NCBI RefSeq assembly: GCF_965363235.1
Contig: NC_134839.1
Coordinates: 82,175,410 to 82,239,409, forward strand
Direction of reading: 5' to 3'
DNA length: 64,000 bases
DNA from: Mytilus galloprovincialis
Taxonomy: Eukaryota; Mollusca; Bivalvia; Mytilida; Mytilidae
Under the pieces are notes generated by a model. That model ran no database searches. It was not told the DNA's origin and was given only the letters and a program-made list of their open reading frames with translations. Of the stretch, positions 11,328 through 59,039 are shown one piece after another (position 1 is the first letter of the stretch; each line of letters opens with the position of its first letter). The position numbers and the translations under genes were made by a program.

Positions 11328-11367
<40 letters not shown>

Positions 11368-14300
11368 ACGATTTAGTGATCGTATTATTAAATTAATGGA
11401 ACTTGTGTTTTCCATAGTTTACAGTAGTAATTTTACGAGTCAGCTGTTTTGTTTATGTTTTTCATATCGCTATTTTTACGATGGAATGTCACCTTGTACA
11501 GAATATTCACGGTTGGTTGGCAGGTATTTGTATTATAAATGATGAGGTAATGTTGTTACCTTATTAGCCTACTTATTTTCTTTATGTAATAACTTGTATT
11601 TTAGCCGTAATCATCTAAATCCCAGCAGTGCCATAGTTTATTTACTAGAGAAGCCATATTTATTGTGTATTGGCGGCCTAATACACGAGATTGCCTGTGA
11701 ACATAACAAACGTTTTGATTGGTTGAGCCTTTGACCGGAAAATTATAAATAGAAGGTTGACGAAACGAACTTCAGATTTATTCTCATCGTCTGCAAGAGC
11801 AGTCAACATTTTAGTCGCAATATAAATTTAGTCAACCTAAATTAATCCAAATGTCTGAACCAAAGTCAACCATTAGTATGGTACGCAGGTTTTAATTGTT
11901 TTAAGAAAACTTAAACCTTCTAGCACATGGCTATTGTTTGTTTTGCAAAAGTCAACCTTCGACCTATGGGAAAGTCCCGTCAGCTGTCGTTCCACTTAGT
12001 CAACCTTCTATCGATGAAATAGGATGAAAGAGATTTTCTGGAAATCTACTTTCGGTTTAGGAAATAAGATATATGAATATCTTTTTATAAATCAACCCTT
12101 TTTAAGTATTTTATACTTTTGGAAATAGAAGGTTGAAAAGTTCAACCTTCTATCAAATCAACCTACGGAAGCAAGTCAACCTAAATGGGAATTTGAAGTC
12201 AACCCTCCTGATCTATAAATAAAGATGATTACGGCCAATTGTATATAAATATAAATGTATGTTTTTATGATCAATTGTAAATATTTGATTATATAGATGT
12301 TATATAAAATGCATCTGAACTTTATACCTGACTTAGTTATTATTTCAACCATATACCAACTCAAAGGATCCATGCAAATTATGTTCGATCGAGCCTCCTT
12401 ATTCATTTAAAATTACCACTCGGTTTAAGGGGCGAAATCGTTACACTGGTGTCAGAAGTGGGATTCTATTAACTTTGAATTTGGTGGTTGAAATAAATAA
12501 TTTATAAATTTATACTAAAGAAGCTTTAGTGTATTTACTTGATGTTAAACTATTTCACTAAATTTTTATAATAAGAATTATTAAAATTTTAGTACATTAT
12601 GGATGATTCTGGAGAAGTAATTATAGCTATTAATCATTCTTTCCAAGAGGAAAATGATGGAGAAATAACCATTCCTTTAAATGAACAGAAGGTTGATAGT
12701 GTTGACTATGCAGAGCAGACAATTAGCCATGACAAAGAACAAAACTTATTTATGAATGAATTAAGAAACCTTAAAAGTTTATTTCATAACCAATTTGGGG
12801 AGATAACCCATGAGTTTTCTAATTGTCAAAAAGAAGTTATCATTGCTGTAAATCAGATAAAAAGAGATTTTCAAGAGGAAATTTCTTGTATTAAAGACCG
12901 CATAAGCAAAATTGAAGATGCTGTATATGAAAACAAGAGAAATATTTCTACCAATTATAAAACTATTGAACAAAATAAAGATTTAGTAAATCACAATGAT
13001 CACATGAGCATGATGAGTGACATTGTAAATACTGAAAACAAATCTAAAGGTGATGGGCAAGCAGTTCCTGATGTAGCTAATCAGACAAGTCAAAATACAG
13101 AAAAACAACAACAAAACACAGATGATATTTATTCATTTAATAAAGATAAAATGTATAATGTAAATCAAAACTATGCTGTACTGGATAGACCCAAGGTTCC
13201 AAGATTGACCAATTCCCATACCCATTTACCCAAGTCTAGTAATGTAACCATGAAGCCACAGTTGTATGAGGGAGATGAAGATTTAGATGAATATTTAGCT
13301 CAATTTGAAATTTTAGCTGAAATAAACGGTTGGAATTATGCAACCAAATCATTATATTTGGCTGGTAGTTTAAAAGGGGGAGCAAGAGCTCTTTTAAATG
13401 AACTAGATAAAGAATCTAGGAAAGACTACAATAGTTTAGTAAAAGTTTTGGACAATAGATATGGTTCAGCTGAGAAATCAGAACTTTTTAGGGCAAAACT
13501 TCAGACCCGTATGAGAGGTAAAGAAGAAAGTTTACCTGAGTTAGCTCAGTCAATTAAGAAATTGACTAGGCAAGCTTATCCAAGTGCCCAATCCACAATA
13601 ACTAGTGTATTAGCACTAGAACATTTTATAGATGCTTTACAAGATGCTGAATTAAGACTAAGACTTAGGGAATCTAACCCTAAATCCATACATGAAGCAG
13701 AAACACTAGCTGTTAGGCTAGAGACATTAAAATTAGCAGAGAGACAAAAAGGTCGCATGGTTAGACAAACAGATTCAGTTCAAACTGATACTAAATTTAA
13801 TACAGAATTGAATGAAGACAAGGGGGAAGATTTAAAATCATTAAAAAATGAATTGAGTGATTTTAAAAGAGAACTGGTCTCATTGTCCAGAAATATAAAG
13901 GGTATGTCCCAAAACCAAAATAGGAATAGCCAAGGGGGAGGTAACCAACAGAGGAACTATCAAAATGGTCAGAGAGGATATAATAACCAGAATAAGAATT
14001 TTGGTCAGGGGAATAGAAATTTTAACCAGAGAAATAATAATTTTGGTCAGAATCAGAATAATTATCAACAGGGAAACCAGTTGAGGTCGGACTCAGGGGT
14101 CGGAGCCAGGCCGGGACAGAATGGCCCAAGTCGATAAAGATAAATGAATCTTTGGCAAATAACGAGGGATTATTTGTCAGAGCTAAAATTAATAATAAAT
14201 GTTTAGCTTTTCTTGTGGATACTGGAGCAAATGTTACTATTTTAAGTAAGAAATTTATTGATGAAATAAATCCCTCATTACTTCCAAAAATGAATCCTGT

Positions 14301-17300
14301 AAATATTAATTTAATTACTGCTACTGGTGATAGTTCACCATTTATAGGACAAATTGATGTTGAAATTTGTCTTGGAAATTATATTTATCACCACAATGTG
14401 TTAGTGGCTGATATTTCCAATGAAGGTATCATTGGAATGGATTTTCTTGTGACTCATGACTGTGATGTCTTGTTAAGTCAAAATAAGCTGAAGATTAAAG
14501 GGGAGATAATTCAATGTTATCATTATGCAAGCAGTGCTAAATCTTGTTATAGAGTGGCTATGCAAGAGACAGTAGATGTGCCTCCTAACTCAGAAATGAT
14601 TGTTTCTGGGGAGTCAGATGAGCCTATTTTTAGAGGTTTAGCTGGTTTAATAGAACCTAATGAGAAGTTTATGGAGAAAAATGGTTTATTGGTGGCAAGA
14701 TCAATTGTACATCCAGAGATGTATAACATTCCTTTGAGGATAATAAATTTAAATAAAGAGCCCTGCACTTTATATAAGGGTACAATTATTGCAACCTGCA
14801 ATAAAGTAGACGAAGAAAATATTCAAACTTCTGAGTTTGTAAATAGTGTGGCTGGGGGCCAAACTATAGTAAATAAGGGGAGACAATTACCTGATTATTT
14901 ACATGAAGTATTTGAGTCTAATCAAGCTAATCTTGATAAAGATCAAAAGGAGAAATTTAGAGACCTTTTAATAGAATATAGTGACATATTCTCAAAGTCC
15001 TCTGAGGACATTGGTTTAACTGATTTAGTTGAACATACCATAAATACTGGAAATAACCCTCCAGTACGTCAGCGACCCAGACGAATACCCCTAGCTAGAA
15101 TGAAGGATGCTGAAGCTGAGATTCAGAAAATGGTTAAGCAAGATATTATAGAACCTTCTACAAGTCCCTGGAACTCCAATATAGTTCTCGTGAAGAAGTC
15201 AGATGGTAGTTGGCGATTCTGTATTGATTTTCGCGCCGTAAATTTATTGGTTTTACGCCCATCCTACCCCTTGCCCCGAATAGATGACACTATAGACTCC
15301 TTGTCAGGCTCCAAGTTCTTCTCAACCGTCGATTTAAAGTCAGGATATTATCAGATTCCAGTAGCCAAAGAAGATAGACCAAAAACAGCCTTTTCCTTTC
15401 CAGGGGGTGGTCTCTGGCAGTTCAAGAGAATGCCAATGGGTCTATGTAATAGTGCCCCTGTATTTGAACAATTGATGGAGACAGTTTTATCAGGTTTGAC
15501 CTGGAAAATTTGTTTAGTTTATTTAGATGATATAATTGTTTTCTCAAAATCATTTGAGGAACATATGAAAAACTTGAAAGAAGTTTTTCAAAGATTAAAA
15601 GCAGCTAATTTAAAGCTGAATCCCAAGAAGTGTAACTTTCTTAAGAAAGAAGTTAAATTTTTAGGTCACATTGTTAGCGAAAGTGGAGTAGCTACTGACC
15701 CAAATAAAATTCAGTCAGTTAAGGACTGGCCAGTGCCCAAGAGTGTGAAAGATGTGAGAAGTTTTCTAGGATTGACATCCTATTATAGAAAATTTATTTT
15801 GAAATATGCTGATAAAGCTAAGCCTATGTATAAGGTTACTGAGAAAAACCAAAAGTTTGTCTGGACAGAAGAATGTCAACAATCTTTTGAGGAATTAAAG
15901 ACTACTTTAATTAGTGCACCTATTTTAGCCTACCCTACCAGGGAGGATTTATTTATTTTGGATACCGACGCGAGTAATGATGGTATGGGAGCAGTACTAT
16001 CCCAACTCCAGGATGGAGTAGAAAAAGTAATTTGTTACTTTAGTAAAACTTTCAGTAGATCTGAGAGAAAATATTGTGTTACGAGAAGAGAACTACTAGC
16101 TGTAGTAGCCTCTATTAAACATTTTCACCATTATTTATATGGAAAATACTTCAAGGTTAGAAGTGACCATGGTGCATTAAGTTGGTTGTTCAATTTTAAG
16201 AATCCAGAAGGTCAGTTAGCTCGTTGGTTCGAGGTCCTGGCATCATATGATTTTAAAATTGAGCACAGAGCTGGAAGGTCCCACAATAATGCAGACGCCC
16301 TAAGTAGACGTCCTTGCTATAACAAAGAATGTCCTCACTGTGCTAGAGCAGAAATAAATTATGAATTGGTTCCAACTCATAAAAATGTTTTAACGGTTGA
16401 AAAATGTAATGATAATGTCACTATTCGTGAATCTTGCAGAAATGTTCAAGATGTTAGTGTCAAACAATCAGTTACAACAACTAGTATTAGCTGTAAAAAT
16501 GAAGATTGGCCAAACATGACAAGTGACGAAACTTGCCACAAAATAAAAAGTCATGTAATTCATAATGAATTTAGAAGTAAGGGTCCAGATGAAAACCCTG
16601 ATGTACTCCCTGTTCAGTCTAAAATAGTAAGAGTTTGTACCAGATCTAAGAATTATAGTTGCAGTCAAAATGAGAAGGATGACCCAGTTAAAGAGATAAA
16701 TTTTGAAAATGTTTCAGAATCTCAATTATCTGATGATGTAATCAGTATAATTATCCAATGGAAAATAGATGAAGTTAAACCCATATGGGCAGATGTATCC
16801 CATATGAGTCCTGAAGTTAAATTTTATTGGTCAAGATTAAATTCTTTAATTCTTGTCAATGGAATCTTATATAGAAAGTGGGAAAGCTATAATGGAAAAC
16901 ATTATGATCTACATATTGTTCTTCCAGCTAATTTTAAAAGGTTCGTGTTGAACCAAGTACATAACACAGTGACCGGTGGTCATCTTGGTGTAAGAAAGAC
17001 TCTATCAAAAATTAAACAGAGATATTTTTGGTATAAAATGAGACAGGATGTTAAATTTTGGTGTACCAAATGTGATATTTGTGCTTCTAAGAAAGCACCT
17101 TGTAAAAAACCTAAGGCCCCGATGAAACAGTATCTTGTGGGTGCTCCTTGGGAAAGAATGGCTATTGACATTCTAGGACCTTTACCAATAAGTGTCAATA
17201 ATAATCGCTATCTGATGGTAGTTCAGGATTATTTTTCAAAATGGACGGAAGCTATACCAATTCCAGACACTGAAGCAGTGACAGTAGCTAAGAAATTTGT

Positions 17301-20300
17301 GGAAAGAATAGTAACCATTTTTGGGGTTCCTCTTTCAATCCACTCAGACCAAGGGTCTAATTTTGAATCTAATGTGTTCAAAGAGATGTGTATTATTTTG
17401 GGTATCCATAAAACCCGTACAACACCATTCCGACCAAAATCGGATGGTATGGTTGAAAAGTCAAATTCAACCATTGAGACGATGTTATCTGCTTTTGTAA
17501 GCAAACACCAGAGAGATTGGGACGAATATATTTATTTATTGATGTTGGCCTATCGGTCATCAGAACATGAGAGTTTGGGTACATCTCCATGTTCTATGTT
17601 ATTTGGAAGAGAAGTTAATCTTCCAGTAGACTTAATTCTGGGTAGACCAGAGACTGAAAAGTCACCTTTGCCTTTAAAAACTGTTTATGCCTATGAATTA
17701 TCCCAAAAGTTGGAGGTAATTCATAAGTTTGCACGAAATAAATTAAAACTGTCAAGTGACAGAATGAAAAGAAATTATGATGTTGGAACTAAGATGCAAA
17801 CATTTGATGTAGGAGATCCCGTGTGGTTACATAATCCTCGTCGTGTCAAGGGATTGTGTCCTAAGTTACAAAATAATTGGGAAGGCCCATATATTGTTGT
17901 AAATAGACTCAATGATGTTATATATAGAATACAGAAGGGACCAAAAACCAAGCCTAAGGTGGTGCACCAAGATCGGTTGAAGCCCTATTTAGGGGAAAAT
18001 GTTCCATTATGGTTTAATTAGGGATATAAGGGGAAGTAATAACCCTTAAAATCCAGATAGCTATCCAATATAGTACAGTTTAAATTTATTTATTTTATGA
18101 AAATATATAAATTACAATAGCAAGCTTTTAAAGGAAATGTTCCTTTTTATAATTGCAGGTCACCATGTATACTTGTGGTATCTGTAGTGATTTCACATTT
18201 GATCAATCAATAATCTGTAAGAGGCACATGACAGAGCAACACAGTGGGTTTGGCTGGAGATGTGAGGAATGCAGAGTCTTGGTGAGTCGCCGTGCAGCTC
18301 ACAAGAAGTGTGAAGGAACTTTAAAACTCATTAATAGATCCACAATGACCTGCACCAAGGAGGAAGAAGAGCAATTCCTTCAGTTCCAGAGACAGAGGGA
18401 AGATAGAATGATTACGGAGAAGGTAGATAGGGAAGGAAAGATGGCATTACAGAAGGACAGTAAAAAGAGGTCACATAGGAAGGAGCAGGACCAAGGGACG
18501 AAGAAGCAGAGAACAGTGCTGGGACAATTGTACACGGAAGAAAATATGGTATTTGGGAATGGAAAGGCAGGAGAGAAAAAGAAGGAGATGAAAAAGGGTC
18601 AGGAAAAGAAGAGAACGCCGGAGGAAGAAAAGGAGAGAATGGAAAAGAGGGAGGAGAAGAGGAAAAGGAAGGAAGAAAAAGAAGTAGAGAAGAGGGGAAA
18701 AGAGAATGAGAGGGAGAAGGAGAAGAAGAAGGAGGAGAAGGAGAAGAAGAAGGAGGAGAAGGAGGAGAAGGAGAGAAGAAAGGAAGAGAAGGAGGAGGAG
18801 GAGAAGAGGAAGGAAGAGGAGAAGAAGGAGAAAATAAAGGAGAACAGGAAGGAGTTGGTAAAGAAACAGAAAGAAGTTTTTTCAAATCTACTGAAGGATA
18901 TGGAAAGCTCCTCCATGGGAAGTATGGAGGAACATGAGGCCGTATCACTATGTGATCCTGAAGAGAATGTTTTTTTTTATGATATTGTGGGATTCACTTC
19001 GGCAGTGGAACCCATTTCTCCTCTGCCAAGTGATCCCTGCAACACCAGTCCGGATCCTGTCATGCCATTTGTAGACGTCCCTATTATAACTATTCCTATT
19101 GATGCCCCCATTGAAGATTCATCGTCATGGGAAATACCACTGATCTCCACCAGCCTATGTCTGCCGTTATCCACCCAACCTTGTGAAACATATTCCCCCA
19201 CCCAAGAAATCCTCTCCCCGTCTGATTTACGACAAGCAGCTGCCATATATACCCCTACCCCAGTCAAGAAGCTGAAGCTTGAGCAGATGAGCAAGAGCCA
19301 GCAATCCCGTTTTTTCATAAATGTGGGCGGAACTAGATTTGAGACTTCTGTTATTACTATACAGTCCTGCCCAGATTCCCTCTTGTCAGAGATGATAAAG
19401 GAAGATTCCGTGGTGAAGCCATATTTGTTTGATGGACGTCACACCTATTTTTTAGACAGAGATGCAAAACATTTTCATTTAATCCTGAATTATTTGAGGA
19501 ACCAGGCCAAAATCCATTCAGATATGCTGCCTAGAGATGTGCGAAGCCTGAGAGAGTTACAGGTGGAGTGCAACCACTATGAGTTGCGACACCTGGAACT
19601 AGCTGTACAGAAGAAGATTTTGGATTTACAGCAGTTAAGCTTGCTTTGAGAAGGAACATTGGGGGGTGGATTTCATTAAGACAATTTCGTTCATAGGATT
19701 ATGTGAAAAACATTGGGGGTGGATATTATGATATACATGTGTGTTATTTAAATATCTCTATTAAGCATAGTGAGGTTAGGTATACCTAATACAGCTACAG
19801 TATTACCTTAGAAAAGCCCCATGATGTCTTTATGACTGAGAAGTAATTTATCCTTTTCTTTTCTCAGGTTTTACTATACAGTATTGGCTTATTTATTCAC
19901 ATATGGTAGAATGTTTTGTTAATTATGGATTTTATATCTATTGATAGTGCTAATTTGACATGTCATTATTTGACATAATTTTGTTGTTGAACTTCCAATA
20001 CTCATGTACTGGTATGTGAATAGACTAGTTAAAGTGTAAATAAGGAACTGGTATTATAAGACAGGGTTGTCTTATTGGATTTTTGTTTCCAAGTTTTTAG
20101 CCAACCAACCAATTAATTTAATACATGTATAGATGGTTTCTGTGCATTTGAGGACAAACGCCTAGTGGTTCGGGGGCTGTGTTACGATTTAGTGATCGTA
20201 TTATTAAATTAATGGAACTTGTGTTTTCCATAGTTTACAGTAGTAATTTTACGAGTCAGCTGTTTTGTTTATGTTTTTCATATCGCTATTTTTACGATGG

Positions 20301-23300
20301 AATGTCACCTTGTACAGAATATTCACGGTTGGTTGGCAGGTATTTGTATTATAAATGATGAGGTAATGTTGTTACCTTATTAGCCTACTTATTTTCTTTA
20401 TGTAATAACTTGTATTTTAGCCGTAATCATCTAAATCCCAGCAGTGCCATAGTTTATTTACTAGAGAAGCCATATTTATTGTGTATTGGCGGCCTAATAC
20501 ACGAGATTGCCTGTGAACATAACAAACGTTTTGATTGGTTGAGCCTTTGACCGGAAAATTATAAATAGAAGGTTGACGAAACGAACTTCAGATTTATTCT
20601 CATCGTCTGCAAGAGCAGTCAACATTTTAGTCGCAATATAAATTTAGTCAACCTAAATTAATCCAAATGTCTGAACCAAAGTCAACCATTAGTATGGTAC
20701 GCAGGTTTTAATTGTTTTAAGAAAACTTAAACCTTCTAGCACATGGCTATTGTTTGTTTTGCAAAAGTCAACCTTCGACCTATGGGAAAGTCCCGTCAGC
20801 TGTCGTTCCACTTAGTCAACCTTCTATCGATGAAATAGGATGAAAGAGATTTTCTGGAAATCTACTTTCGGTTTAGGAAATAAGATATATGAATATCTTT
20901 TTATAAATCAACCCTTTTTAAGTATTTTATACTTTTGGAAATAGAAGGTTGAAAAGTTCAACCTTCTATCAAATCAACCTACGGAAGCAAGTCAACCTAA
21001 ATGGGAATTTGAAGTCAACCCTCCTGATCTATAAATAAAGATGATTACGGCCAATTGTATATAAATATAAATGTATGTTTTTATGATCAATTGTAAATAT
21101 TTGATTATATAGATGTTATATAAAATGCATCTGAACTTTATACCTGACTTAGTTATTATTTCAACCATATACCAACTCAAAGGATCCATGCAAATTATGT
21201 TCGATCGAGCCTCCTTATTCATTTAAAATTACCACTCGGTTTAAGGGGCGAAATCGTTACAATATATACATTATGAGTTTAAGCAGACATGTTAAGACTA
21301 GTCAGAAGAGATCTAGTCTGTTTTACCCAGCCTGTCCATTGTTAAACGGTAACTCTTGTTATTAAGATAACAACTGATAACATTCAAATATACAAATACA
21401 AATCAACAAGAGAAGCTCTGACACTATGAATAATATAATGTTCTTATTTCCTATGATATTTCATGTTATATTATTATTTTTACAGAATGGAGTAATTATT
21501 CATGAAATGATGCATGCCATTGGTTCTTGGCATGAACAATCTCGACAGGACCGAGACAGCTATATGACTGTTATTTGGGATAATATTCCAGAAGGCGCTA
21601 AATCAAACTACTATATAAGCCAAACATATAATAATACTCCATTTGACCCATCATCCAATATAATGTATGGTATATATGTAAGTGTTATTTAGAATCAGCT
21701 TTTTTTTCGGAGGTCTGTTTCTTTGTTTCTAAAAAGCATCTCCATTTATAAATCATATTAAATTCTACTTTGTCAAAGTTATATCCCAATTACGCAAGTT
21801 CATATTCACAATCTTAAAAATGGAAGACATTGTAGGGATGACGCGCTGCCAATTTAGCTATGAAAACCATTTAATATAACATCGAAGCATCATTACGATC
21901 CTTATATGACAATTGTATTTCAAAAGACAAATGTATTTACTTGTACTTATCTGCATTGAGGCAACTTAAAACAATTGTCTGATCGGTTGTCAGGTGGAAT
22001 TTGAAAAAAAAATCATTAATATTTCAAAAAATTCTTATTAAATATGTTTGTGGAAGGGCAGACTAAAAAAAATCGGTGATTGAAGATTATAAACTCTTAT
22101 CTCATACAAAAAAAGATGTTTTTTTTTCAAAGACATGCATTTTAAAGATCCAACTTGAAAGTCTGTCGTCAAGTACTGTTAGTAAAAATGTAATATTCGA
22201 ACAAACCCACTCTGTGTTTGTGATTCATTGGAAAGGTATTTCACTTGACCCATACATTCCATTTTTTATTAATGTGAATGTTTGATGTTATAAACCCAGC
22301 CCGAAGCCTTGAATCTGAAGCGAGATGATGTATTAAATGCTATTGCATTATACGTTTTCAAAACAAAATATTCAATACAATCACGCCTAAACATATAAAG
22401 ATGGTCTCCTATTTCTCTTTTGGATGCAACTGTTACCTATAAGTTGAGTCACATAATGGAAGTGCAGAAACGACAATAAAGGAACAAATCGATTAATACG
22501 TTTTCCGTCTGTATAATTTTGATTCCCAACTGAATAGACACTTATGTCGTCGACTTGGTATATAATTGTTCTGCTTAATTATGCAAACTATACATTGAAT
22601 GCTTATATAAATTGTGTTTGAATGAGAAAAAACATCATAATTTAACGAAAACTGTCATTTTGTTTGTTGCTATAAACTTCTAAAAAAATTGTTTCTATAG
22701 TAAACATTACAATAAGCATTGTTCGCCTCCTTTAACAATTCTTTTGTTCTATTTCAACTGGGTTTCCGCCTCAAATGCATTATCAGATGTATATACAAAT
22801 ATTTAGCTATTAATTTTGTAATAAACCTTTACGTGAAGCAAATCGTTTGTTCCGATTTCATAAACACAATTATGGTATTTTTGATTGTGATAGCTTTGTG
22901 TTTGTGTTGCCGATATTGCATTAACAGACCTTTATTACACTATGTGGCTGAAACGGAGGCTGATGTAGGCTTTTCATGACTTCTTTTTATCACAATTGAA
23001 GTCCGCATTTATTTTCTTCCGCCCTAGAACATTATGTTAGATTTGCCAAATTAAAGGATGTACTCAGGTTAGGTTTTAGAAGAAGTGTCAAATGTTCGGA
23101 CTCCTCAGTGTTTTCTAATCGATACATGATAAAATATGTTGCCACATAACACCTAATTATCTTTTAACATAAGACTTATTGGTTCATAAAAGGTCATTTG
23201 ACAATCTTTAAGCAGATGCTTGATTTTCTTTTACTCTGATTTGAGACCCAAATAATACCAATGAAAATATAAGGTAAAAGTCCGAGTAAGCCTTTTCCCG

Positions 23301-35300: not shown

Positions 35301-38300
35301 TATGCCCCATTTATGGGCATTATATTTCTGGTCCGTGCGTCCGTTCGTTCGTGCGAATGGGGCATTCATGTACTATGGCTAAATCCGTTTTTTTGTGTGT
35401 TTTTGTTAATTCAATTATGAAAGAGTTTGTGCTATAATTCGTTAAGTTTAACAATTTTTAATGCTAACGCACAACTTTAGCATCGACCTATTGGGCGTTT
35501 AATTCTGACTGTTCGCAAACGTAGCAGTAATGATACATTTGTGGCATCATCTGAATAACTATGTTATAAGGAAAATTTACACTAATAAGGGAAAGGAAAA
35601 CGGTCACCAATTGACCCCTTCCACCTTAGTTATATCCATTTAAAGACGAGTGTATCCACTTTCGAAATAGTTAATTATTTTAAAAGAAACATTGGGACTT
35701 TAGACAGCCACATATTATCCGTACGAACATATCTATAAATAATCAATATGTCCTCATAGTGTCTATTGCATCCCCAAAGCTGTGTGTTCCCAAATTTTAT
35801 AAACAAGTTCTGAGAGGATCAGACCTTGTAACAATCTCTTAGCGATCACAATATGCAAATGCTGTTTAAGATTTTAATGTTGCATATTGTTTGCAGAAAT
35901 TCTAATTTCTGGATGTATTTAGAGGTTTTGCTATACTTTCTTGTGCTTGAAGACTCGATATCAAAAGCATTTGCCAGAATTATTATTCCTTACAGATTAC
36001 AATTAACGGGACGATAGGGATTGAGTGGATGGTAGAAATGGCTCTAGATGGAATATTCTTGGTTCCTGGTACCTGTGGTTAGTATGACTTCGTTATAAGA
36101 AAAAGGATCCAACTATATTAGGTTCGAGTACACAGTTATTGTCCTTTGATTTTCGTTTTCCACAAATATAGTCCCTAGTGTGGACAGTGTGTTACTTGCC
36201 ATTTTTTTTATACCCCTTCCAAAGTTATTTTCTCATGTTTTATGTTTCAAATAGCAAGTAGGGGGATGAAATTTCACTTTAAAAAAAAATGGGTCATGCA
36301 TTTAAAAGTCAAGTAGGGATTTGGTCCAGCTAAAAAGTGTGAAAAAATAGCATTTCGGAAGCTGTCAAAAGATTTCAAGACCCTCAAACATAAAATTGTC
36401 CACATTTTGAGTTAGAGCTGATGAAGTTTTCTATAAATTTGATATTATAATTTATCCCATAAGTAGTACAACACCCTTTGAAAATATAATGGAGAAAGCG
36501 CAGGTTGGATTTTTTAATTTTCCTTAATTGTCTAAAAGAAATGCACTAAGAAATAACTATGGTCTCGGACCATATCATTTTCAAAGCTAATCTGGAGTAT
36601 AGGAATCAGGAGAAAAGTGGCATATAACAAACAAAGCTAGAGGGAATGCACAATAACCGAATCTAATTTAACATCATTTGTAATATCTTAGTTGTATTGT
36701 AATTAGAGGTAAATAAATAGTAAAGGATATATAGGACTCGACACATTAAAGGCTGGCAAAATTGGTATTATGCCTGGAATGTCATTATCATGTTAATTTA
36801 CTCGTTTTAGTTTGACCTAGATAATTGTTTCGAGTTATGTATATATATATATGCTTCCGTATTTGCTATGAAAAGCTTCATTATACAAATTGGATATTTG
36901 TTAAATATACCTTTAATTAGTTTGTAAGTTTCTTTCTAGTTGATCTACTTCTACAGACTTTGTGGTCCTTTGACATTCTATATGATGTCTTTGAAATGTT
37001 TTAACACTTTCTTTAAAACGTTTCAATCTTTAAATTGTTAGTCTAAAAAAATTGTAAACTATTAAAAGACATCTGTAATCCACACTTGTATTTAATATCT
37101 CAACTGTATTGGCAACATTTTTTTACCTTTGACATAAAAGTTCAGTCTATACCTTCCGCACAATTGAATGCAATATCTTCATGTTATGTTCCAACATATC
37201 CAATCATCGATGTCTGTCGAAAAAGTGGCATTGTACTGCATGTGATATACATTCAGAATGTTAGTTCATGTTAAAAAGAATGTTGTTTTTTTTAAGGAAA
37301 ATTGATTTTTACCTGCTTTTTTTATATTTGTAGCTCCCTTTAATCGAGGAGCCAGCGTGAGCTTTCGTCAACACTTTTCCTAAATCACCGTTTGTCATCT
37401 GTTCAATTTATAAAAAATCATCTCCTCTGAAACTACTGTATCAAATTTAACAAAGATCACTGGGTATTTAGATTCGAAGAAAATGTGTCTGATGACAACG
37501 TTTGCAAACAAGCATGGCAAACATGGCTTATAATACAAAAACTGTTCACAATCATGAGATCTACAATATTTTCATACGACTACGTGTAGAGTTGAACAAG
37601 AATGATTCCGATTTTTATTTAAAAAGAAAATTGTGAATTCTATCTCAAAAACTATAACTGAAAGGCAGTAACTTCGAATTTTAAAAAAGGACAAGACAAG
37701 ATCCACGAATAATTCTAAGTGCAATTTTCATTTTGAAAGCTATAAAAGATAGATAGATATTTTAAACAGAAGAAAAGACCAGAAGGACAAAATCTACCAA
37801 TAAACTAGTATGACCGTAATTGTAAGTGGACAACATACATAAGTTATGGTCTGTGATGGCAATTTTCCTAAAATAGATGCAAAAAAAAGAGGAAATTTTC
37901 ATTACTTTTGCTTATTTGTGCTTTATTTTTACGTCATTGATCTGATTTTATTTTGAAAAAAATAATATTTCTATTTTCACTTCAATGTATGTGAATTTTA
38001 CAGCAAGTCCTTTGTCAACACCCGCTCCAACTAAACTAACTACAACAGCTACTTCGACCACAACAACCACTCCGACCACAACAACTACTCCAACAACAAC
38101 AACTACTCCGACCACAACAACTACTCCGATCACAACTACTACGACTACAACAACTACTCCAACCGCAACAACTACACCGAGCACAACAACTTCTCCAACC
38201 ACAACAACTACTCCTACCACAACAACTACTCCGACCACAACGACTACTCCGACCACTACTATTCCGACTAGAACAACAACTCCGTCCACAACAACTACTC

Positions 38301-41300
38301 CAACCACAACAACTACTCCGACCACAACAACCACTCCGACCACTACTACTCCGACTACAACAACAACTCCGGCCATAACAACTACTCCAACCACAACAAC
38401 CACTCCGACCACAACAACTACTCCGTCCACAACAACTACACCGACCACAACAACTACTCCAACAACAACTACTCCGACCACAACTACTCCGATCACAACT
38501 ACTACGACTACAACAACTACTCCGACCACAACAACAACAGCGAGCACAACAACTTCTCCGACCACAACAACTACTCCTACCACAACAACTACTCCGACCA
38601 CAACGACTACTCCGACCACTACTACTCCGACTACAACAACAACTCCGGCCACAACAACTACTCCAACCACAACAACTACTCCGACCACAACAACCACTCC
38701 GACCACAACAACTTCTCCGACCACAACAACTACAACGACCACAACAATTTCTCCGACCACAACAACTTCTCCTACCACAACAACTTCATATGGCACAACA
38801 ACTTCTCCGACCACAACGACAACATGTGTTCCTACATGTGACAAAGGTATAATGAAGTGGCATCGACGGAAATGTGGATGTAGTGTTTTATTATTTTACT
38901 TATCATTTTATGATATTCTTGTATGCCTCTTCTCAATCATCTCATGAGACATTTTGAAGGATTTTTCACATATAGTGTATGCATCCTTTTTTTTTCTTTT
39001 TCGGAGTATTTTATATTCAGCTAATACTAAGTTAACTAGAATACTTGAATCTTTGCTGGGAGATTATGACTAGTTCGATTTAAAAAAAAGGAATTGTATC
39101 AACGAGTTGATCTCATCTGCTTTCTATTTATAATAAATGACTCTGAACTCAATATTTTAAAAGAAGGAAACATTAAAAGCACGGGTCAAAATGTATCTTG
39201 TTGATTGAGCTAAGCAATCGGTGTCATATAGTTGATCAAATACTGGGAAGCGGAGGGGTTTCACGAAAAAAAATATACACAGACTGTATGTCTGCCTTTT
39301 TTCTCTTCAGTTATTGAATGTGGATTTGAACAAGGACAAACATGTGCATTCAAAAATACTAATGGCGACGACTTCGACTGGACTTTAGAAAAATCCGTAA
39401 GTGTTGTTTAGAAGCAAATAATGAATATTTCTCTACGTATAATTTAATTTTTGATGTACTGCGTCTTCTGATTGGGTGACGTTTTTTTGTTGATCAACTC
39501 ATTGACATAATTTAGTCATGTGACCATAACGTCATCAACTTTTTTTCATGGTTTACTCTGGTTTAAAATGGAATTTAGAATTAAATTATAAGAAATAACT
39601 TTAATATTTTATTTGTCTATTCGAAATAACATGAAAAATGTAGAGCACACCTTAATTAACATGCTACGCGGGTTATTCAGTGTGCACCACAGTTTTTATG
39701 TTATTTTTTCATAGACAGAAAGATATATTACAGTTATTCCTTTATTATATCACATAGTTCTGCTATTAGATTTGTGATCGTCATAGTGTCATTAATGTAC
39801 AACAACTGCTAATTTTTACTGAAATTGGACATTCTTAGTTTTTTTTTTAGTTTAAACATATTCATTTATAGTGGATTGGGAAATAAGTTTTGCAACTTAT
39901 ATTTATCCCTTTCCACTTTGCGGGTGCGAGTGCTGCCCTGTAGCGGCATTGGCCTGCTCTTTTTCGAAATCTACAAGGGTGTCTTTAACGTGCAAGAGAT
40001 ATGGCTCTCTCTTAACACGGGTCAATCATTTATCGTCCCCTTCCGACGGACTATCATCGTTTCCTCAAGAAACATACTCGCAAATGGTGTCAAGGGAGCG
40101 CCAAAAAGTCAGTCCATGAACTTTTCATCCCAGACGGAAATCGAACCAGGAACATTTGTGTTAGTAGTCCGATGCACTAACCACTACACCACGGCGGCTC
40201 ATTCTTAGAAAATACAAATTCAGGGATTAATTGAATATAATACAATAACATCATCGGCTCATGTTATAAAAAGTGATAAGAATCCTACATAAAAGAGTTT
40301 CAATGAGACTTATCTTTTGGTAAGTATTTTTTATGGCCCCGGTTGTCGGTGCCATATAGTTTTACCCTTGTAATTTCGAAATTCCGTAATTCAGTCATTC
40401 CGTCATTCCGCAACAAACCAATATACGGAGTTTTTTTCTAAACGCCTTCAGATATTGGGATGATTTTTGGTTAGTGAGTTAACCATGATGAGTTACAGAT
40501 CAAGTTTAAGTTTCGTTCCGCTCCGCTAATTTTTGCCGAAATAACGGCCTATGGACTTGTCAAATTATTGAAAATCACGGTTAAACGGACTTTTTTTGTT
40601 AAACGCTTTCAGATATTGGAATGACTTTTGGCATATGAGTTAACCAAGATGTGTTACAGACCAAGTTTAAGTTTTGTTACGCTCGGCTACTTTTTGCCGA
40701 AATTACGGGCTAAGGACTTTGTTAAATTGTTGAAAATCATAGTTATACGGACTTTTTTCTAAACGCTTTCAGATATTGGGCTAATTTTTTATATGTGAGT
40801 TACTCATGATGAGTTACAGATCAAGTTTAAGTTTTATTCCACTCTGCTAACTTTTGTCGAAAATTACAGGCTTTGGACTATGTTAAATTTTTGAAAATCA
40901 CAGTTATACGAACTTTTTTTCTATACGCCTCCAGATTTCGAGCTGATTTTTGATATGTGAGACCACCATCATGTTTGTGTCCACATGTGTTATTGAAAAT
41001 GCAGATTTTCCAACTTTTTGAGACGGGGCCATTCGTGTCGCTTTGACACATCTAGTTTATTATTTTTCTTTTAAAAGAAATAACGTCCTTTCTCAGATTA
41101 CGGTTAATAAGAATAGTCGAAAATATACGGTATTAATCATGACGACGAGGCAGCAATCCAACGAAACAACAAACAAATAAAAAAATATACATTTGAACTA
41201 AAATTGTTAAATGTGTAAATTTGAGTTGATATTAAAAAAGTTGGTAAGTTTGATTATGATGTTAAAAAAAGAAATCGTTAAAACATTTTTCAGCAAGTCC

Positions 41301-44300
41301 AAATTCATATTAAAAAAATTAACAATCATGTTTTTTGTCTCATGCACGTACTCTCTGTCTCAATCCAATTGTCAGCTATAGCTTAATATTCTTTTATAAG
41401 ACAACTTATTGTCGTGTACAGCTTATGACATACATTGAAAACACAACTAAACTCTCAATATGAGACGTAATATCGAATTGTGCTAATAAGTTGGTATCGA
41501 AATCAGATAATACAGAAAGTATTGCTATTAAGCAATCACTGAAATACCTTCTTGTGTCGAACACAAGTATTTTGTTATAGCAATCAATGAAATGTTTTCT
41601 TGTAACGAACAAAGTATTGTGGTATAGTACTCACTAAAATATTTTCTTTTCGAACAAAGAATTGTGGTATAGTAATCAATGAAATGTTTTCATATGACGA
41701 ACAAAGTATTGTGGTATAGTACTCACTAAAATATTTTCTTTTCGAGCAAAGTAGTGTGGTATAGTAATCAATAAAATGTTTTCTTATGACGAACAGAGTT
41801 TCGTATTATATCAGTCGCTGAAATGTATTCTTGTGTTGTACAAATAATCGTGTGACGACACATCAAAGAGGGAACTATAAAACATGACAACAAACACAAT
41901 TTTATTTTTCATATTATAAATGTCATTGCAATACAGGGATCAACATCTACCACAAACACTGGTCCTTCGGCTGCACACAGTGGTAACCAATATGCCTATA
42001 TTGAGGTAAATGGTCAAGGACAGGGATTTGTGGCCTTTTTGAGCTCAAAGAATACTAACCTGTTCTGTAAGTATTAAAGACATTCACTTATATATGTTAA
42101 AACCTTACTATATCTTAACAACGTGTTTTATTGTTTCTGCATTTGTTTTCGTTCTATTATTAATATTACTTGTACTGTTGGATTGTTTTATGTGATATCC
42201 ATTTAACGTGGCTCGGTACTTATACATCTCGTCAAAGTGTTTGTATTGTCTTTTATTTTTTGCTGGTGTGATTTATATATGCGACGTTTTGTATTTTTTT
42301 GGTTCTTATAACGTGACTCTGTACTTTAAAAGATCCCGTTAGTATGATATTGTTCTATTTCATGTCATTTTGAGATATTTCTATTAAGAATTACTAAATA
42401 CATTGAACCACAAACGTCAAAATCCTTCAATCAAGTTGTGGAATTAAGTATTTGTGGATTCTTATAAATTCTATATAATCTTTGGACTCGGTCCGGAAAT
42501 CAGTTATTCCTTCAAATTTTTCCTACCAGAGTAAACTTTAAATACACATTCATTTGTCCGTTTGTAAAGTTTCACTGAGATTGTGTGGGCTTATTATTTT
42601 ATGCACTGACCTTGAATAAAACGTTATCGTTGACACTGGACTTCGAACATTGCTATCAAGAATCAAATGTTAGAGGGAGAAACTGATTCATTTTGATTGG
42701 ACTGTCAGTGTTAGAAAATATTGGGACTATATATGTTAGAAATATTTTTCCCAAAGTGATTATTCTGATTATTATATAAATAAACTAGCAATTTTCAATA
42801 AATCCATCAATATATTATAGAAAATGTACAAAAAATATAAGAACTTCATCTCAATCAAATGTTTGTCCCAAATAAATGCACTATTTTAAATCTCGGTCTA
42901 TTTTTGAAATTTCCTAACATTGCCTATGTGAAATTTTAAAACTGTTTGTATGTACATTGAACGACAAATCTATGTGACGTATAACATTTTCTGACGTCAG
43001 ACACGCAAATCAATGAATGTGTTTGTAGATAGTAGTTTTTGTGTTCAGTTAAATTGTTTCTTTGATAATTGTTACACGATGATGACTGCTGTACCCATAT
43101 TTTGACCATTTTATTTATTGTGTCTGTTTAGTTCACGCTTCATTGTAAATATAACGGACTTTGATGAGACTGTCATCAAAGTGAGAAGGTTAACGCTATA
43201 AACCAGGTTTAATCTACCATTTTCTACATTTGAAAATGCCTGTTACCAAGTCAGGGATATGACAGATCTTGTCCATTCGTTTTTGATGTGTTTTGTTATT
43301 TGATTTTGCCATGTGATTATGAACTTTCCGAATTGATTTTCCTTTAAGTTCAGTATTTTTGTGATTTTACTTTTTACATTAAATTACGTAAGTATTTTTG
43401 TTATTAGTTTCAACTGCACTATTGTTTTCTTGTAACTAGCTTTCATGTTGTCTTTAGTGTCGTGTGAAGACAATATAATCCATCCTTGTGCTTCAGGTTT
43501 ATGCTCCAATAATATGGAAGATAATTGAGTGTATCGGAGCGATAGGATTTTTTTCGCTGTGTTGAAGACCCATTGATGGCCTACGTCCATTATTTGCTCT
43601 TCGGTCGTGTTGTTGTCACTTTAACATATTCCCAATTTTCATTCTCAATATCATTTATATGAAGCTGTCGATTTAAAATTATTAGATACTCTATCTCTTT
43701 ATTTTCGATGCAGTTGGAATTTTTTCGATTTTTCAACTTTGACCCTAATGTGGCTTATCTATTGTAACAGCATGATTGTCATCTGCTATCTGTTCTGTGA
43801 TTTTACACGTCATTTTGGAGCCCCTTTATAGCTTGCTGTTCGGTGTGAGCTAAGGCTCCGTGTTGAAGACCGTACTTTGACCTATAATGGTTTACTTTTA
43901 CAAATTGGGATTTGAAAGATAGTTGTTTCATTGGCATTCATACCTCATCTTATTATGTCTATTATAATAAAACGTTTCAACAAAAATAAGCCACTGGTGA
44001 ACAAGAAAACAAATTGATTTTATAATGTACAATAGTTTTATCCCCTGGGAATTTTACCTGTAAGCATGAAATATAGACGACCAAAAAAACTATGTTGGAA
44101 ATAAGTGAAAAATCTTTATAAGTAATTAAGATATATCATCAATGAAATTAGTATCCACGGTGTATCCTTATGAAAAATTATGTTCCGAAAGATTTCCTAA
44201 ACTTTAATCTACGAAAAAAAAATGGTTGTAGAAACATGCACACTTAACAACATGTAAAATAGGTCAATAGAACACTTATCATTATTAAAAATACACCTGT

Positions 44301-47300
44301 ACGTCATTAGTGTTCCTGTCAATGGTGAGACTACTTTGATAAAGTAATATCATTGACCAGTTTAGTACCACCATTGAATATATCATGACAATATGCTAGT
44401 GTTGTATGTTTTTTTTTATAGGTTAAACAACTGATATATCATATTATATATAAAATGCAATATTTCTTTTAACACTTTAACGTATTACCTATACCAATGT
44501 TTCACACAAACTCGTGCATGCTGGTAACAGCAATGATACTATTTAGTAACACTATTGATATTTTTATTTATTAATATTATTTTATATAATTTGGGACTTT
44601 GTTTTTTTTATTTTTATGCTGCTTAGTGTTCTTTGTTTCATGTTAGTACTTTATTTAAATCATAATTGAACGGTGTTGTCAATGGTAATACTTTGTGCCA
44701 TTGTAATTACTGAAGAGATAGAGGTTTTACTATATAAAAATGCCATTATCTTTATGTTTTATTAACAATTGACATTTGTTTATCCCGTATAGGAAAGACA
44801 AGCCATTGTCTGTCTTATCATTTTGTCTTACACATTTTACATGTATTCAGTTTTAATGTATACTTTAATATTACCAACAACCATAATTAGGACAGTTATG
44901 AGTTTTGCAACAATTCATTCTGATTTTTTTGTTAAATATAATGCATACCTATAGAAATGACTAGTTTTTTAAAACTTTTAAACAACAAATTGAAACGTTG
45001 TAGTCAATCAGCACATAATATGCAGATGAGCATATTCACAAGAAATTAGAACCATTTGAACCTTTTAGAAGTTGAGTGTCTTCGAACTTAATAATATGGT
45101 GAGATTTTGTTTTCCCAGTGACAATGTATGGGCGTAGGATATGTCAGTTATTCTCAAAGGGTTCTTTAATTTCCCTGTTCATTTGTATAAACTTCATATT
45201 TCAATTGTTTTGATAATGAATTACATATCTCACTTGTCAAATGATTATGGTGATCATTTCAGCCTCTTCGTATTGCCTCAGATTTTATTATCACATGTAT
45301 GGTCAAGATATCGGATATCTAGCAGTGTACTCACAAACAAACAACTCGGGCTATTGGTCCAATCCTTGGACTCGGTCTGGAAATCACGGAAATCAATGGA
45401 TAGAAGCTAGTGTGGATATTACTGGTAATATACATTCAGGCATTGTTGTAAGTATATAACCAGGATACATGTATCAGTTCTTCCTGTAATTTTTTCCTAC
45501 CAGAGTAAACTTTAAAGACACATTCATTTGTCCGTTTGTAAAGTTTCACTGAGATTGTGTGGGCTTATTATTTTATGCAATGACCTTGAATAAAACGTTA
45601 TCGTTGACACTGGACTTCGAACATTGCTATCAAGAATCAAATGTTAGAGGGAGAAACTGATTCATTTTGATTGGACTGTCAGTGTTAGAAAATATTGGGA
45701 CTATAAATGCTAGAAATATTTTTCCCAAAGTGATTATTCTGATTGTAATATAAATAAACTATCAATTTTCAATAACTCCATCATTATATTATAGAAAATG
45801 TACTAAAAATAATAGAACTTCATCTCAATCAAATGTTTGTCCCAAATTAATGCAAAATCACCTAGTCGGTTCTTAGTAGTAAGGCTCTATTTATATTGCA
45901 TATCGATGGCATCATAATGATTGTAACTTGTGGCACTGCCGTTGTTCGTTGTTATTTGATATTAATTGGTTTGTTCCTTCTGTATCTTATTTGCAGCAAT
46001 GGACATTTGAGCGAAATGAAAGAATATTTGAGAAATTAAAAAAAGAATTCGAGTGTCAAAGTATCGAATATCTAAGAGAAAATACAAAATAAGCATAGGA
46101 CATTTTAACGAGAGAAAAAAATAAGAATGATGAAGGAGTACCTCTTCTGTTCTATATATTTAATCTGTAATCCTTGCTCACCACGGGAGGTGGAAGTAGA
46201 ATCTCAACCAGGATATAGTTTACAAAGAGTTGATGACGCACACAATTCAAAACATCTTTATAATACACTGTCATAAAACATAAAACTCGTCAATGGCAAT
46301 ATTTTAAAGTCAGTTCGGGCTTGGAATTTATTTCTAAGGCTTCTGACATAGAAATCCCTCCTGACGGAAGATTCAGGTTCTAAGTAGGGAATACGTTTGC
46401 TGAACAGACGGACAAGCAGCTGCAAGATTTTTCATGTGATGACTTTCTTACCGTTCACACATTGATCTTAAATGAGCTGTTATATGTTGTTTCGTATACC
46501 ACAATGAATGTTAAGTTCTATGTTGTAGATTTCCACGTTTGTTTATCAGAATTTGTATTATCTGGTCTTTGATTGATTAGAACATGACAATTTCCATGCA
46601 TTAGCTTCAGAGTTATCACACCAATGAATTTCGAATTTGGATATGTTGTATCTGGTAACAAAATGAAGGTCATTAACGGGGTTGACCATTTTTACTTCAA
46701 TTGTTAAGGAGTTACGGCCCTTAAAAGTTTTAATAGTGACACCAATGATATAAACTGTCTATACACTTTCGTTGATGACACACCTGTCCTTTATAATAGA
46801 GTGAATGTATGAAAGACGACATTTTCTGTAACACGATTTATCCTTGACGCATGCAACAAAATTAAGTGTATGCATAGCAAAACATCAAGAGATAAATAAA
46901 AAAAAAATACAAAACTCCAAGGAAACATCAAAACGGAAACTCTCTTGTCAAAAGCTCAAACAGTTACTCATCAATCGAAGTTAAGAGTAACTTTTATATT
47001 CTTTACTTGGTAAAATATGGTTACTCTCTTGATGTAGCCATGTATTGAAACAAACATTACTAAACTATTTTAACGTAGGATACATACAATTGGACTCTTC
47101 AATGTTAAATTTGTGTCAATTAAAACAATGTTAAATTGTGAATTTGTCATAATTCTATAATTTTTCAAATCAAGTACGCAATTACATTTCATACTAATCA
47201 GAATGTAAAATATCAATTACAATTAGCGACTAACTGAAACATTCAAAACACGTGAATGAATTATGTGTGCGAAAAAAAAATTAGATAACATAAAATGTAT

Positions 47301-50300
47301 TTCAACTTATTAAAAAAAAATATAAAGTGTGAATGACAATTATTTTTAAATACTTGTAAACCTAAACAAAAGAATATTTTCTACATTAATATTTTTTTCA
47401 GATTGATATCGAGGCTTCGAAAGGAAAAGCTGGTAATAACGGTGATATTGCAATTGATAATATAAGATTGTGTACCGGTTCTTGTACTCCAGGTATATTT
47501 ATATTCAGCTAATACATAGTTATTTGGAATACATGAATCTTTGCAAGGTTATTATGGCTAGTTCGATTTAAAAGAAAAAGGAATCGTAGCAACGATTTGA
47601 TCTTATTTGCTTTCTATTCATAAAAATTGACTCTGAACTCAATATTTCAAAAGAAGGAAATAATAAAAGCGCGGGTCAAAATGTAATTTGTTGATTGAGA
47701 TAAGCATTCGGTGTCAAACAGTTGATCAAATACTGGGGAGGGGAGGGGTTTCACATAAAAAAAAATATAGACTTTATGTCTGACTTTATTATCTTCAGTC
47801 ATTGAATGCGGATTTGAACAAGGACAAACATGTGCATTGGAAAATACTAATGGCGACGACTTCGACTGGACTTTATATAAATCCGTAAGTTTTGTTTAGA
47901 AGCAAATGAAAAATGAATATTTCTCTACATATAATTTAATTGTTTATGTAATGCGTCTTCTGATTGGATGGCGTTGTTTTGTTTATCAACTCCTAGACAT
48001 AATTTTTTCATGTGACCATGACGTCATCAACGTTTTTTCATTGTTTACTCTGGTTTGAAATGGAATTAAGAATTAAATTATAAGAAATTACTTTATATTT
48101 TATTTGTCTATTTGAAGTAACATAAAAACTGTGGTGCACACCTTAATTAACATGCTACGGGTTATGCATCATATTTTTAGCTCACCTGGCCCGAAGGGCC
48201 AAGTGAGCTTTTCTCATCACGTTGCGTCCGGCGTCCGTCGTCGTCGTCCGTCGACGTTAACTTTTACAAAAATTTCTCCTCTGAAACTACTGGGCCAAAT
48301 TAAACCAAACTTGGCCACAATCATCTAGTTTAAAAAATATGTCCGGTGACCCTGCCAACCATCCAAGATGACCGCCATGGCTAAAGATTGAACATAGGTG
48401 TAAAAAGTAGATTTTGGCTTATAACTCTGAAACGAAAGCATTTACAGCAAATCTGACATGGGGCAAAATTGTTATCAAGTCAATATCTATCTGCCCTGAA
48501 ATTTTCATATGAATTGGACAACTAGTTGTTGGGTTACTGCCCCTGAATTGGTAATTTTAAGGAAATTTTGCCGTTATTGGTTATTATCTTGAATACTATT
48601 ATAGATAGAGATAAACTGTAAACAGCAATAATGTTATGCAAAGTAAGATCTACAAATAATTCAACATGACCAAAATGGTCAGTTGACCCCTGAAGGAGTT
48701 ATTGCTCTTTATAGTCAATTTTTAACAATTTTTATTAATTTGGTATTTTTTGGTAAATTTTTACAAATTATTGTCCTCTGTAACAGAAGGGCCAAGTTTA
48801 TTACAGATAGAGAAAACTGTAAGTGGCAAGAATGGTGAGTAAAGTAAGATCTACAAACACATCACCATCACCACAACACAATTTTGTCATGAATCCATTT
48901 GTGTAATTTGTTTAATATGCACATATACCAAGGTGAGCGACAAAGGATCTTAAGAGCCTCTAGTTATGTTATTTCTTCATAGACAGAAAGAAATATTACA
49001 GTTATTCCTTAATCATATCACAAAGTTTTGATATTTTGATTAGATTTGTGATTGTCGTTGTGTCATTTATGTGCAACAACTACTAATTTTTACTGAAATT
49101 GGATATTCTTCGAAAATATAAATCCAGGGATTAATTGATAATACTACAATAACATCATCGGCTTCTGATATTCTTGTTTAACATGATATAAAAAGTTATA
49201 AGAATTCTACATAAAAAAGATTCAATTAGACTTATCTTGTTGGTATGAAAAAAAATCCCTCTTTTGGTATGTTTTTTTTTTATTTTAAAAGAAATAACGT
49301 CCTGTCTCAGAATACGGTTAATACGAACAGTCGAAAATATACGGTGTTAATCATGGCGATGAGGTAGCAATCCAACGAAACAACAAACTAATAAAAAACT
49401 ATACATTTGAACTACAAATTCTAAATGTGTAAATTTGAGTTGATATTAAAAAAAAGTTGGTAAGTTTGATTATATGTTTAAAAAAAGAAATCGTTAAAAC
49501 ATTTTCAAATTCATATTAAAAAAATTAGCAATCATGATTTTTTCTCATGCACGTCCTCTCTGTCTCAATCCCATTGCCAGCTATAGCTTAATATTCTATT
49601 TTAAGACAACTTATTGTCTTGTACACTAATGGCATACATTGAAAACACAACTAAATTCTCAATATGAGACGTAATTTCGAATTGTGCTAACAAGTTGGTA
49701 TCGAAATCAGACAATACAGAAAGTATTGCTATTAAGCAATCACTGAAATACCTTCTTGTGTCGAACACAAGTATTGATATATAGTAAGCACTGAAATGTT
49801 TTCTTGTTACGAACTAAGTATTGTGGTATAGTAATCAATGATTATTTTTCTTATGACGAACAAACTATTGTATTATATCAGCCGCTGAAATGTATCATTG
49901 TGTTGAACAAATAACCGTGTGAACGACACACCAAAGAGGGGACTGTAAAACATGACAACAAACAAACACAATTTTATTTTTCATATTATAAATGTCATTG
50001 CAATACAGGGATCAACATCTACCACAAACACTGGTCCTTCGGCTGCACACAGTGGTAACCAATATGCCTATATTGAGGTAGATGGTCAAGGAGAGGACTT
50101 TGTGGCCTTTTTGAGCTCAAAGAATACTAACCTGTTCTGTAAGTATTAAAAACATTCACTTATATATGTTAAAACTTTACATTAAATTACGTAAGTATTT
50201 TTGTTATTAGTATTCAACTGTACTATTGTTTTCTTATAACTAGCTTTTATGTTGTCTTTTGTGTCGTGTGAAGACAAGATAATGCATCCTCTTGCTTCAG

Positions 50301-58599: not shown

Positions 58600-59039
58600 A
58601 CAAGTAACAAACTTTTACTGTAAACTCTTTAAATTGTTGCTGAAAAGCACTGGAAAGTTGATTGACCTCACAATACGACTCGAATATAGATCTACAAATT
58701 TAGATTCAGAAACCCCTGAATTAGCCACGATGGCACGGACTGACCCTCTTCCTACCATACTTGACAATCTACTACTCTTTGTTAAGAGGATGAAGAAGAC
58801 CAACATATTTGCTACAGGACGTCATTTGTAGACCCCCTGACAAAGCTAAAGTAATAGCACAAGCTCCCCGAATTCCATGAGGGGTCTCACCGTCGTAAAT
58901 ATCGAGTTTCTTTAAATATTTCTTCAAGCGATCATACATTGCATTCGAAGATACAGGACTGTCAGTAAAATCTTTTCGATTTTTACTCAAAGTACGGAAT
59001 AAATAACCAAACCGTAACTCCAAGTGCCCTGACACCTTC

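Follow-up and report, generated by a model that had tools for sequence, protein, structure and literature searches.

A 64,000-nucleotide stretch of the Mytilus galloprovincialis genome (contig NC_134839.1, positions 82,175,410 to 82,239,409, forward strand; hereafter the window, with positions counted from its first letter) carries at 11364-21261 (+) one complete-looking long terminal repeat (LTR) retrotransposon of the Ty3/Gypsy group. Its third open reading frame (ORF), ORF3, is intact and encodes a 494-aa protein with two finger-like motifs at the N-terminus and a T1/BTB domain at the C-terminus. ORF3 runs from an ATG at 18165 to a stop codon at 19649 (+), downstream of the pol stop (18021) and upstream of the start of the 3′ LTR (20180). 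Both LTRs carry an array of TCAACC/GGTTGA hexamers, a feature newly noted here. ORF3 is most likely the lineage-typical third gene of a mussel Ty3/Gypsy-type element. That its product is, in general terms, a nuclear nucleic-acid-binding regulator falls a little short of an even chance in our estimate; a narrower proposal, in which the protein acts on the array itself, is tentative and is developed below.

The C-terminal domain was identified by a Pfam hidden Markov model (HMM) search, which placed BTB_2 (the T1/KCTD type) at residues 385-477 of 494 (19317..19595, +) with an E value of 7.5e-17 and 61.9 bits against a cut-off of 21.4. An earlier note, made from the letters of this DNA, had read a T1/BTB domain from the motifs INVGGTRFE and FLDRDAKHFHLILNYLR; both are present in ORF3, and the HMM search bears the reading out. 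By sequence, the closest solved structures are KCTD15, KCTD1 and KCTD9 (E 2.1e-8 to 2.4e-7), and the 78 matches up to E 1 further include a Kelch protein, presumably from Plasmodium, KCTD16 and Kv1.1 T1 domains. AlphaFold2 modelled the BTB region with moderate confidence (mean predicted local distance difference test, pLDDT, 70.9). When this model was compared with the PDB by Foldseek, KCTD BTBs made up 49 of the 50 matches listed (the best 50 of 591, E up to 10), at template modelling scores of 0.40-0.46 by query length and root mean square deviations of ~10-12 Å; the BTB model is rough. The model of full-length ORF3 is of low confidence (mean pLDDT 56.3). Assignment to a single KCTD subtype was dropped because, while the BTB of ORF3 favours KCTD15/KCTD1, two relatives and the family profile rank KCTD5 or the Kelch protein first.

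ORF3 is not env, as the earlier note had also held: BTB_2 is the sole family above the Pfam cut-off, and there is no transmembrane segment, the highest 19-residue hydropathy being 1.36. The element thus lacks the env gene that characterizes errantivirus-like endogenous retroviruses. Nor does ORF3 have the layout of a KCTD protein. It shares the T1/BTB fold with KCTD1, 15, 16, 5 and 9, but in those proteins the BTB is N-terminal (PMC10856315), whereas in ORF3 it is C-terminal and follows the finger-like motifs and a spacer.

At the other end of the protein, pattern and alignment define motif 1, C4-x2-C7-x13-H21-x4-H26 (residues 4-26; 18174..18242, +), and motif 2, C33-x2-C36-x9-H46-x2-C49 (residues 33-49; 18261..18311, +). 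In an alignment of 13 rows, made up of ORF3 of the window and 12 of the 18 relatives described below, none of the eight putative ligands varies among the rows in which its position is covered (4, 4, 6, 8, 8, 8, 8 and 8 of the 13 rows), and four relatives (P0003, P0009, P0010 and P0011) have all eight. From these patterns, the motifs would bind zinc and DNA.

The two ends are separated by a Lys/Glu/Arg-rich helical spacer (residues 121-247; 18525..18905, +), recognized by composition, predicted helix and repeats, and by a 128-residue acidic linker that follows it. The spacer is 72% Lys, Glu or Arg, a helix is predicted at residues 152-247, and its DNA consists largely of purine-rich tandem repeats. 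The stretch is weak or missing in more distant relatives. The 170-residue Lys/Glu/Arg helix of the earlier note is therefore real as a stretch, but it is shorter than stated and is a variable, repeat-derived spacer; we rejected it as a functional hallmark since it is not conserved and derives from repeats.

Three protein searches gave 19 other proteins, from which P0006, a Kelch-BTB protein, was set apart to leave 18 family members: P0003 and P0017 from M. edulis, P0002 from M. californianus, P0004 and P0005 from M. coruscus, and 13 from other sources. Over the alignment, P0003 and ORF3 are 96% identical. BTB_2 was found in all six relatives scanned (E 2.4e-17 or better); P0005 breaks off within the BTB, and no Pfam domain is listed for it. 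The finger region is at least partly present in 8 of the 18 (P0003, P0004, P0008-P0012 and P0014), the rest starting later or being fragmentary, and the N-terminal 145 residues of P0010, used as a query, retrieved family members only, with BTB_2 in five of five (query included). A one-off capture of ORF3, which the earlier note had named as an outcome that would undo its reading, is disfavoured by this recurrence in three Mytilus species and elsewhere, seen as proteins. A tree of the BTB (ORF3, 14 relatives and P0006, with P0002-P0005 left out; 5 of 12 inner branches well supported) groups ORF3 with P0017, P0011 with P0012, P0008/P0019/P0020 with P0001, and seven proteins around P0009/P0010. 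No locus for any relative came from scans of viral contigs (with ORF3, the family alignment and pol) or from one genome-contig scan; the gene is presumably present in the relatives' own elements. P0003 and P0002, two public gene models of the finger-BTB family, bear the names ‘DNA ligase 1-like’ and ‘putative uncharacterized protein DDB_G0271982’; the Lys/Glu-rich stretch may have misled the naming.

Identity along the protein was compared among six representatives (P0007, P0001, P0008, P0009 and the closely related P0011 and P0012). Averaged over pairs, identity reaches 0.70 in residues 1-60 (10 pairs) and 0.66 in the BTB, against 0.46 in residues 61-120, 0.24 in the charged region and 0.26 in the acidic linker (15 pairs for each of these four). 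Both ends of ORF3 thus seem to have been kept while the middle was not, a contrast of protein-level identity and not of nonsynonymous to synonymous change (dN/dS).

The second component is in the LTRs. The 5′ LTR (11364..12445, +) and 3′ LTR (20180..21261, +) are each 1082 bp, begin and end TG...CA, and are identical at 1082 of 1082 positions in pairwise alignment. The 5′ LTR holds 13 TCAACC/GGTTGA hexamers at 11721..12350, 10 forward and 3 reverse, and the same 13-copy array is placed at 20537-21166 (+) in the 3′ LTR by offset from its identical partner. The rest of the window would predict 0.44 copies per LTR. In 1000 dinucleotide shuffles, TCAACC/GGTTGA reached at most 4 copies and any hexamer with three or more letters at most 10. 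Spacing between the exact words is irregular, from 11 to 146 bases, and the positions flanking them hold 0.7 bit of information or less; this little flank information argues for a cluster of a short word and not a tandem repeat of a longer unit. A TATA-like box at 11744 predicts a transcription start ~30 bases after it, and 11 of the 13 hexamers are downstream of that start. The transcribed leader so defined is predicted to fold more stably than 100 of 100 shuffles (z -4.46), partly through pairing of the hexamers.

ORF3 is likely to be expressed from a spliced subgenomic RNA, judging from candidate splice sites scored by a weight matrix. The candidate acceptor, ttttataattgcag/g (18145..18159, +), lies just 5′ of ORF3; its junction at 18158 is 6 bases before the ORF3 ATG and ranks second in 17500-18400, but it is outside the 12 best of the internal region. 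The candidate donor, ATG/GTACGC (11878..11886, +; junction at 11880), which was also checked for frame, ranks fifth in 11364-14200 and is the first within the predicted leader. Joining the two brings an ATG farther upstream (11851) into the ORF3 frame, to read MSEPKSTISM-VTMYTC, an agreement expected by chance in about one case in three. P0009 and P0010 begin MSLQVT, of which LQVT can also be read in the window across the acceptor. Avian retroviruses splice from gag codon 6; the corresponding junction here is in frame, but its donor is weak (rank 24) and we rejected it.

The element is a young copy that looks complete, as its identical LTRs (0 of 1082 differences, 95% upper bound on divergence 0.0028), a frameshift heptamer and intact ORFs indicate. 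The earlier note had called the gag and pol of this LTR element ordinary, which is borne out by paired LTRs, a gag frame and Pfam pol domains. The gag frame (512 aa; 12599..14137, +) has a Gln/Asn/Gly-rich C-terminus, no CCHC zinc knuckle was found in it, and its Pfam matches are all below cut-off (SCAN, E 0.0033; Retrotrans_gag, E 0.092). The open frame of pol (14062..18021, +) has matches to aspartic protease, reverse transcriptase (RT), RNase H and integrase (H2C2, rve core and p58 C-terminal), in Ty3/Gypsy order. The two frames overlap at 14062-14137, and a heptamer for -1 frameshifting, G GGA AAC in the phase of gag, lies within the overlap at 14071..14077 (+); an RNA fold 3′ of the heptamer was considered as a stimulator and rejected, as the fold is not unusual (z -0.77). 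A primer-binding-site-like sequence, which we take to be of tRNA-Leu type, adjoins the 5′ LTR at 12447..12464 (+), and a purine-rich tract-like sequence adjoins the 3′ LTR at 20167..20179 (+), both read by eye. Paired LTRs, gag and the order of pol domains place the element at the level of the Ty3/Gypsy group. The target duplication is ambiguous (ATAT or ATATAT) because the insertion is in an (AT)n run.

Taken together, ORF3 and the array suggest how an animal LTR retrotransposon might carry a two-part control of its own. The N-terminal zinc motifs would bind a short sequence, and two such motifs could read ~6 bases, the length of the repeated word. The charged middle of the protein would serve as a flexible spacer. 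Through the C-terminal T1/BTB, monomers would form a ring, and a single such complex could hold many sites. Such multivalent binding would favour an array over single sites. The candidate target is the element's own LTR, with TCAACC/GGTTGA around and downstream of the promoter; binding there could sustain LTR activity, insulate the LTR or prevent its silencing, or it could tether nucleic acid of the element, and the finger-BTB protein and the word would co-evolve in each lineage. In its specific form, with a finger-BTB ring gripping the hexamer array and insulating the LTR or shielding it from silencing, the idea is possible but doubtful, although it can be tested directly, since a single copy, intact and recent, contains both the candidate effector and its candidate target. 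The earlier note had thought of redirected ubiquitination, chromatin tethering or silencing of rivals; its observation was confirmed and its interpretation is partly supported.

Several points weigh against the proposal. The first concerns the fingers: the ORF3 N-terminus has no Pfam match above cut-off (the best is Zf-C2H2_ZNF451, E 0.46, 10.8 bits against 29), the same is true of the fingers of six relatives, and the name zinc finger therefore rests on pattern and conservation. The C2H2-like fingers of the earlier note are thus upheld as ligand patterns, invariant where covered, but not by the zf-C2H2 HMM, and motif 2 ends in Cys; CCHC-like fingers of this type often bind protein or RNA. The second concerns the array. 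TCAACC was chosen after inspection of the LTR and then tested, and among 293 control windows of 1082 bp, 6 contain more than 13 copies of some hexamer, all of them over a mucin-like tandem repeat. Outside that repeat the maximum is 12, for the AT-richer TCAAGA, and hexamers with three or more G/C reach 9. The array could also serve RNA structure, a role that the leader allows because it folds better than its shuffles, partly by hexamer pairing, or its reader could be a host factor. Lastly, ring formation by ORF3 is suggested by analogy with KCTDs.

The T1/BTB domain is also what would make ORF3 a substrate adaptor for Cullin-3 (Cul3), in which case the fingers would bring a host restriction or silencing factor for degradation, in the manner of lentiviral accessory proteins. 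The domain is of the KCTD class, and giant-virus BTB and KCTD-like proteins match the BTB model. The family profile scores KCTD9, KCTD5 and SHKBP1, which we take to be Cul3 binders, at 39-43 bits, against 34-38 for the non-binders KCTD16, KCTD15 and KCTD1 (best row each), and two relatives used as single queries place KCTD5 above KCTD1/15. These profile scores decide little, because global sequence similarity separates Cul3 binders from non-binders poorly (PMC10856315). Set against them, the BTB of ORF3 itself ranks KCTD15 and KCTD1 first, and neither binds Cul3; a proline in the alpha2-beta3 loop, tied to this non-binding in the same source (PMC10856315), is present in 10 of 13 lettered rows of one alignment (A4, with ORF3 counted once) and 12 of 13 of another (A2). 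We consider the adaptor role unlikely.

ORF3 might instead replace or assist Gag as a packaging or particle protein, its fingers binding the element RNA through the repeated leader word and its BTB and helix assembling. The absence of a CCHC knuckle from gag is consistent with such a division of labour, as are the 11 hexamers in the predicted leader, the single orientation of 10 of the 13, and the stability of the leader fold. The leader structure may, however, stem from the repeats themselves, and Gag proteins that lack knuckles but have Gln/Asn/Gly/Arg-rich tails are common. This role is quite unlikely in our view.

There is also the possibility that a multicopy host finger-BTB gene was captured by chance and that the relatives are host genes. 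Elements are known to catch host genes (PMC7264820), and the contig scans that returned no locus for any relative fit with this origin. Three observations speak for a gene of the element: (i) P0008-P0012 and P0014, from unannotated ENA or Logan contigs, are each predicted as a single protein that extends from the fingers through the BTB, which would fit a retroelement gene without introns; (ii) there are close variants with truncated or diverging ends, as in transposon families, some of which may end with their contig; and (iii) ORF3 fits neatly into the space from pol to the LTR and is preceded by an acceptor-like site. A chance capture is very improbable in our estimate. That ORF3 is a passenger with no role in the element's cycle, as the freely drifting middle might suggest, is the least probable of all, given that both ends are conserved across lineages with a BTB identity of ~46-70%.

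To our knowledge, extra non-env genes in animal LTR retrotransposons have rarely been described, and their functions are mostly open. Foamy viruses, retroviruses with env, encode Tas/Bel1, a transactivator of their own LTR (PMC4929722), and the role proposed for ORF3 is alike in being that of an element-encoded regulator of its own LTR. Zinc fingers and a BTB also occur in one protein in the ZBTB transcription factors, which differ in having the reverse domain order and another BTB class. The third gene of Drosophila gypsy is env, and the BTBs of Mod(mdg4) and CP190 are of another class than T1/BTB. The 5′ regulatory region of gypsy nonetheless offers a close parallel, with twelve Su(Hw) sites and the BTB partners Mod(mdg4)-67.2 and CP190 (PMC5666082): both are Ty3/Gypsy elements in which a short word recurs some twelve or thirteen times, and both have a connection to zinc-finger and BTB proteins. 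In gypsy these proteins are host-encoded, whereas here one polypeptide of the element has finger-like motifs and a T1/BTB, and its binding to the array is proposed.

In Arabidopsis, VANC21 finds VANDAL21 through a nine-base word arrayed in one orientation, in tandem repeats, within its noncoding stretches (PMC5735166). Common to both cases are an accessory protein encoded by the element and, in noncoding DNA, a dense array of a short word, which in the mussel LTR is largely in one orientation. VANDAL21 differs in being a plant element with a transposase, VANC is another kind of protein, and binding, proven for VANC, is a proposal for ORF3; moreover, the plant arrays grow by tandem repeats, while the mussel words are irregularly spaced with little shared flank. 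Plant LTR retrotransposons, for their part, have additional ORFs (aORFs) in sense orientation between pol and the 3′ LTR (PMC7264820), and an additional ORF of orchid Gypsy elements encodes an N6-methyladenosine (m6A) demethylase, a host-type domain (PMC9289625). ORF3 is alike in orientation, in position and in having a host-type domain, but neither a BTB nor a finger ORF is mentioned in the PMC7264820 abstract. Traffic in the reverse direction is exemplified by KCTD1 isoform b, the product of a host gene that took up a Crypton domain (PMC3212892). No description of a BTB gene in an LTR retrotransposon appeared among the papers listed in searches of open-access PubMed Central text, and the word BTB is absent from the main text of PMC8220671, PMC9289625, PMC8905726 and PMC6238403; the earlier suggestion that the combination is undescribed agrees with this literature.

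Should ORF3 bind the LTR word, it would be an animal counterpart of plant VANC anti-silencing and a self-made gypsy insulator in which one gene replaces the host proteins. Were Cul3 its partner instead, it would be a case of an accessory protein through which an animal retrotransposon commandeers ubiquitination in its host. In both cases there would also be an explanation for the mussel gene predictions that now go by ‘DNA ligase 1-like’ or ‘putative uncharacterized protein’.

Around the element, no second copy was found in the window (element proteins at E 1e-3, DNA at E 1e-5), and tRNA and Rfam scans of the window gave no match. An astacin (M12A) metalloprotease exon at 21381-21692 (+; Pfam E 6e-17) follows ~120-220 bp downstream on the same strand, and the element may sit in or beside an astacin gene. 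At 58772-61766 (-) there are DIRS/Crypton-type-looking remnants with inverted repeats nearby: a weak tyrosine recombinase match is below cut-off (Phage_integrase, E 0.0084), and an RT-like fragment, which has no Pfam match, was seen by eye. A long Thr/Pro tandem repeat with a unit of ~18 bp and a mucin-like reading occupies 37898-38947, and segmental direct duplications, mostly at a 6.5-8.5 kb offset and ~88-96% identical, extend over 39082-53685.

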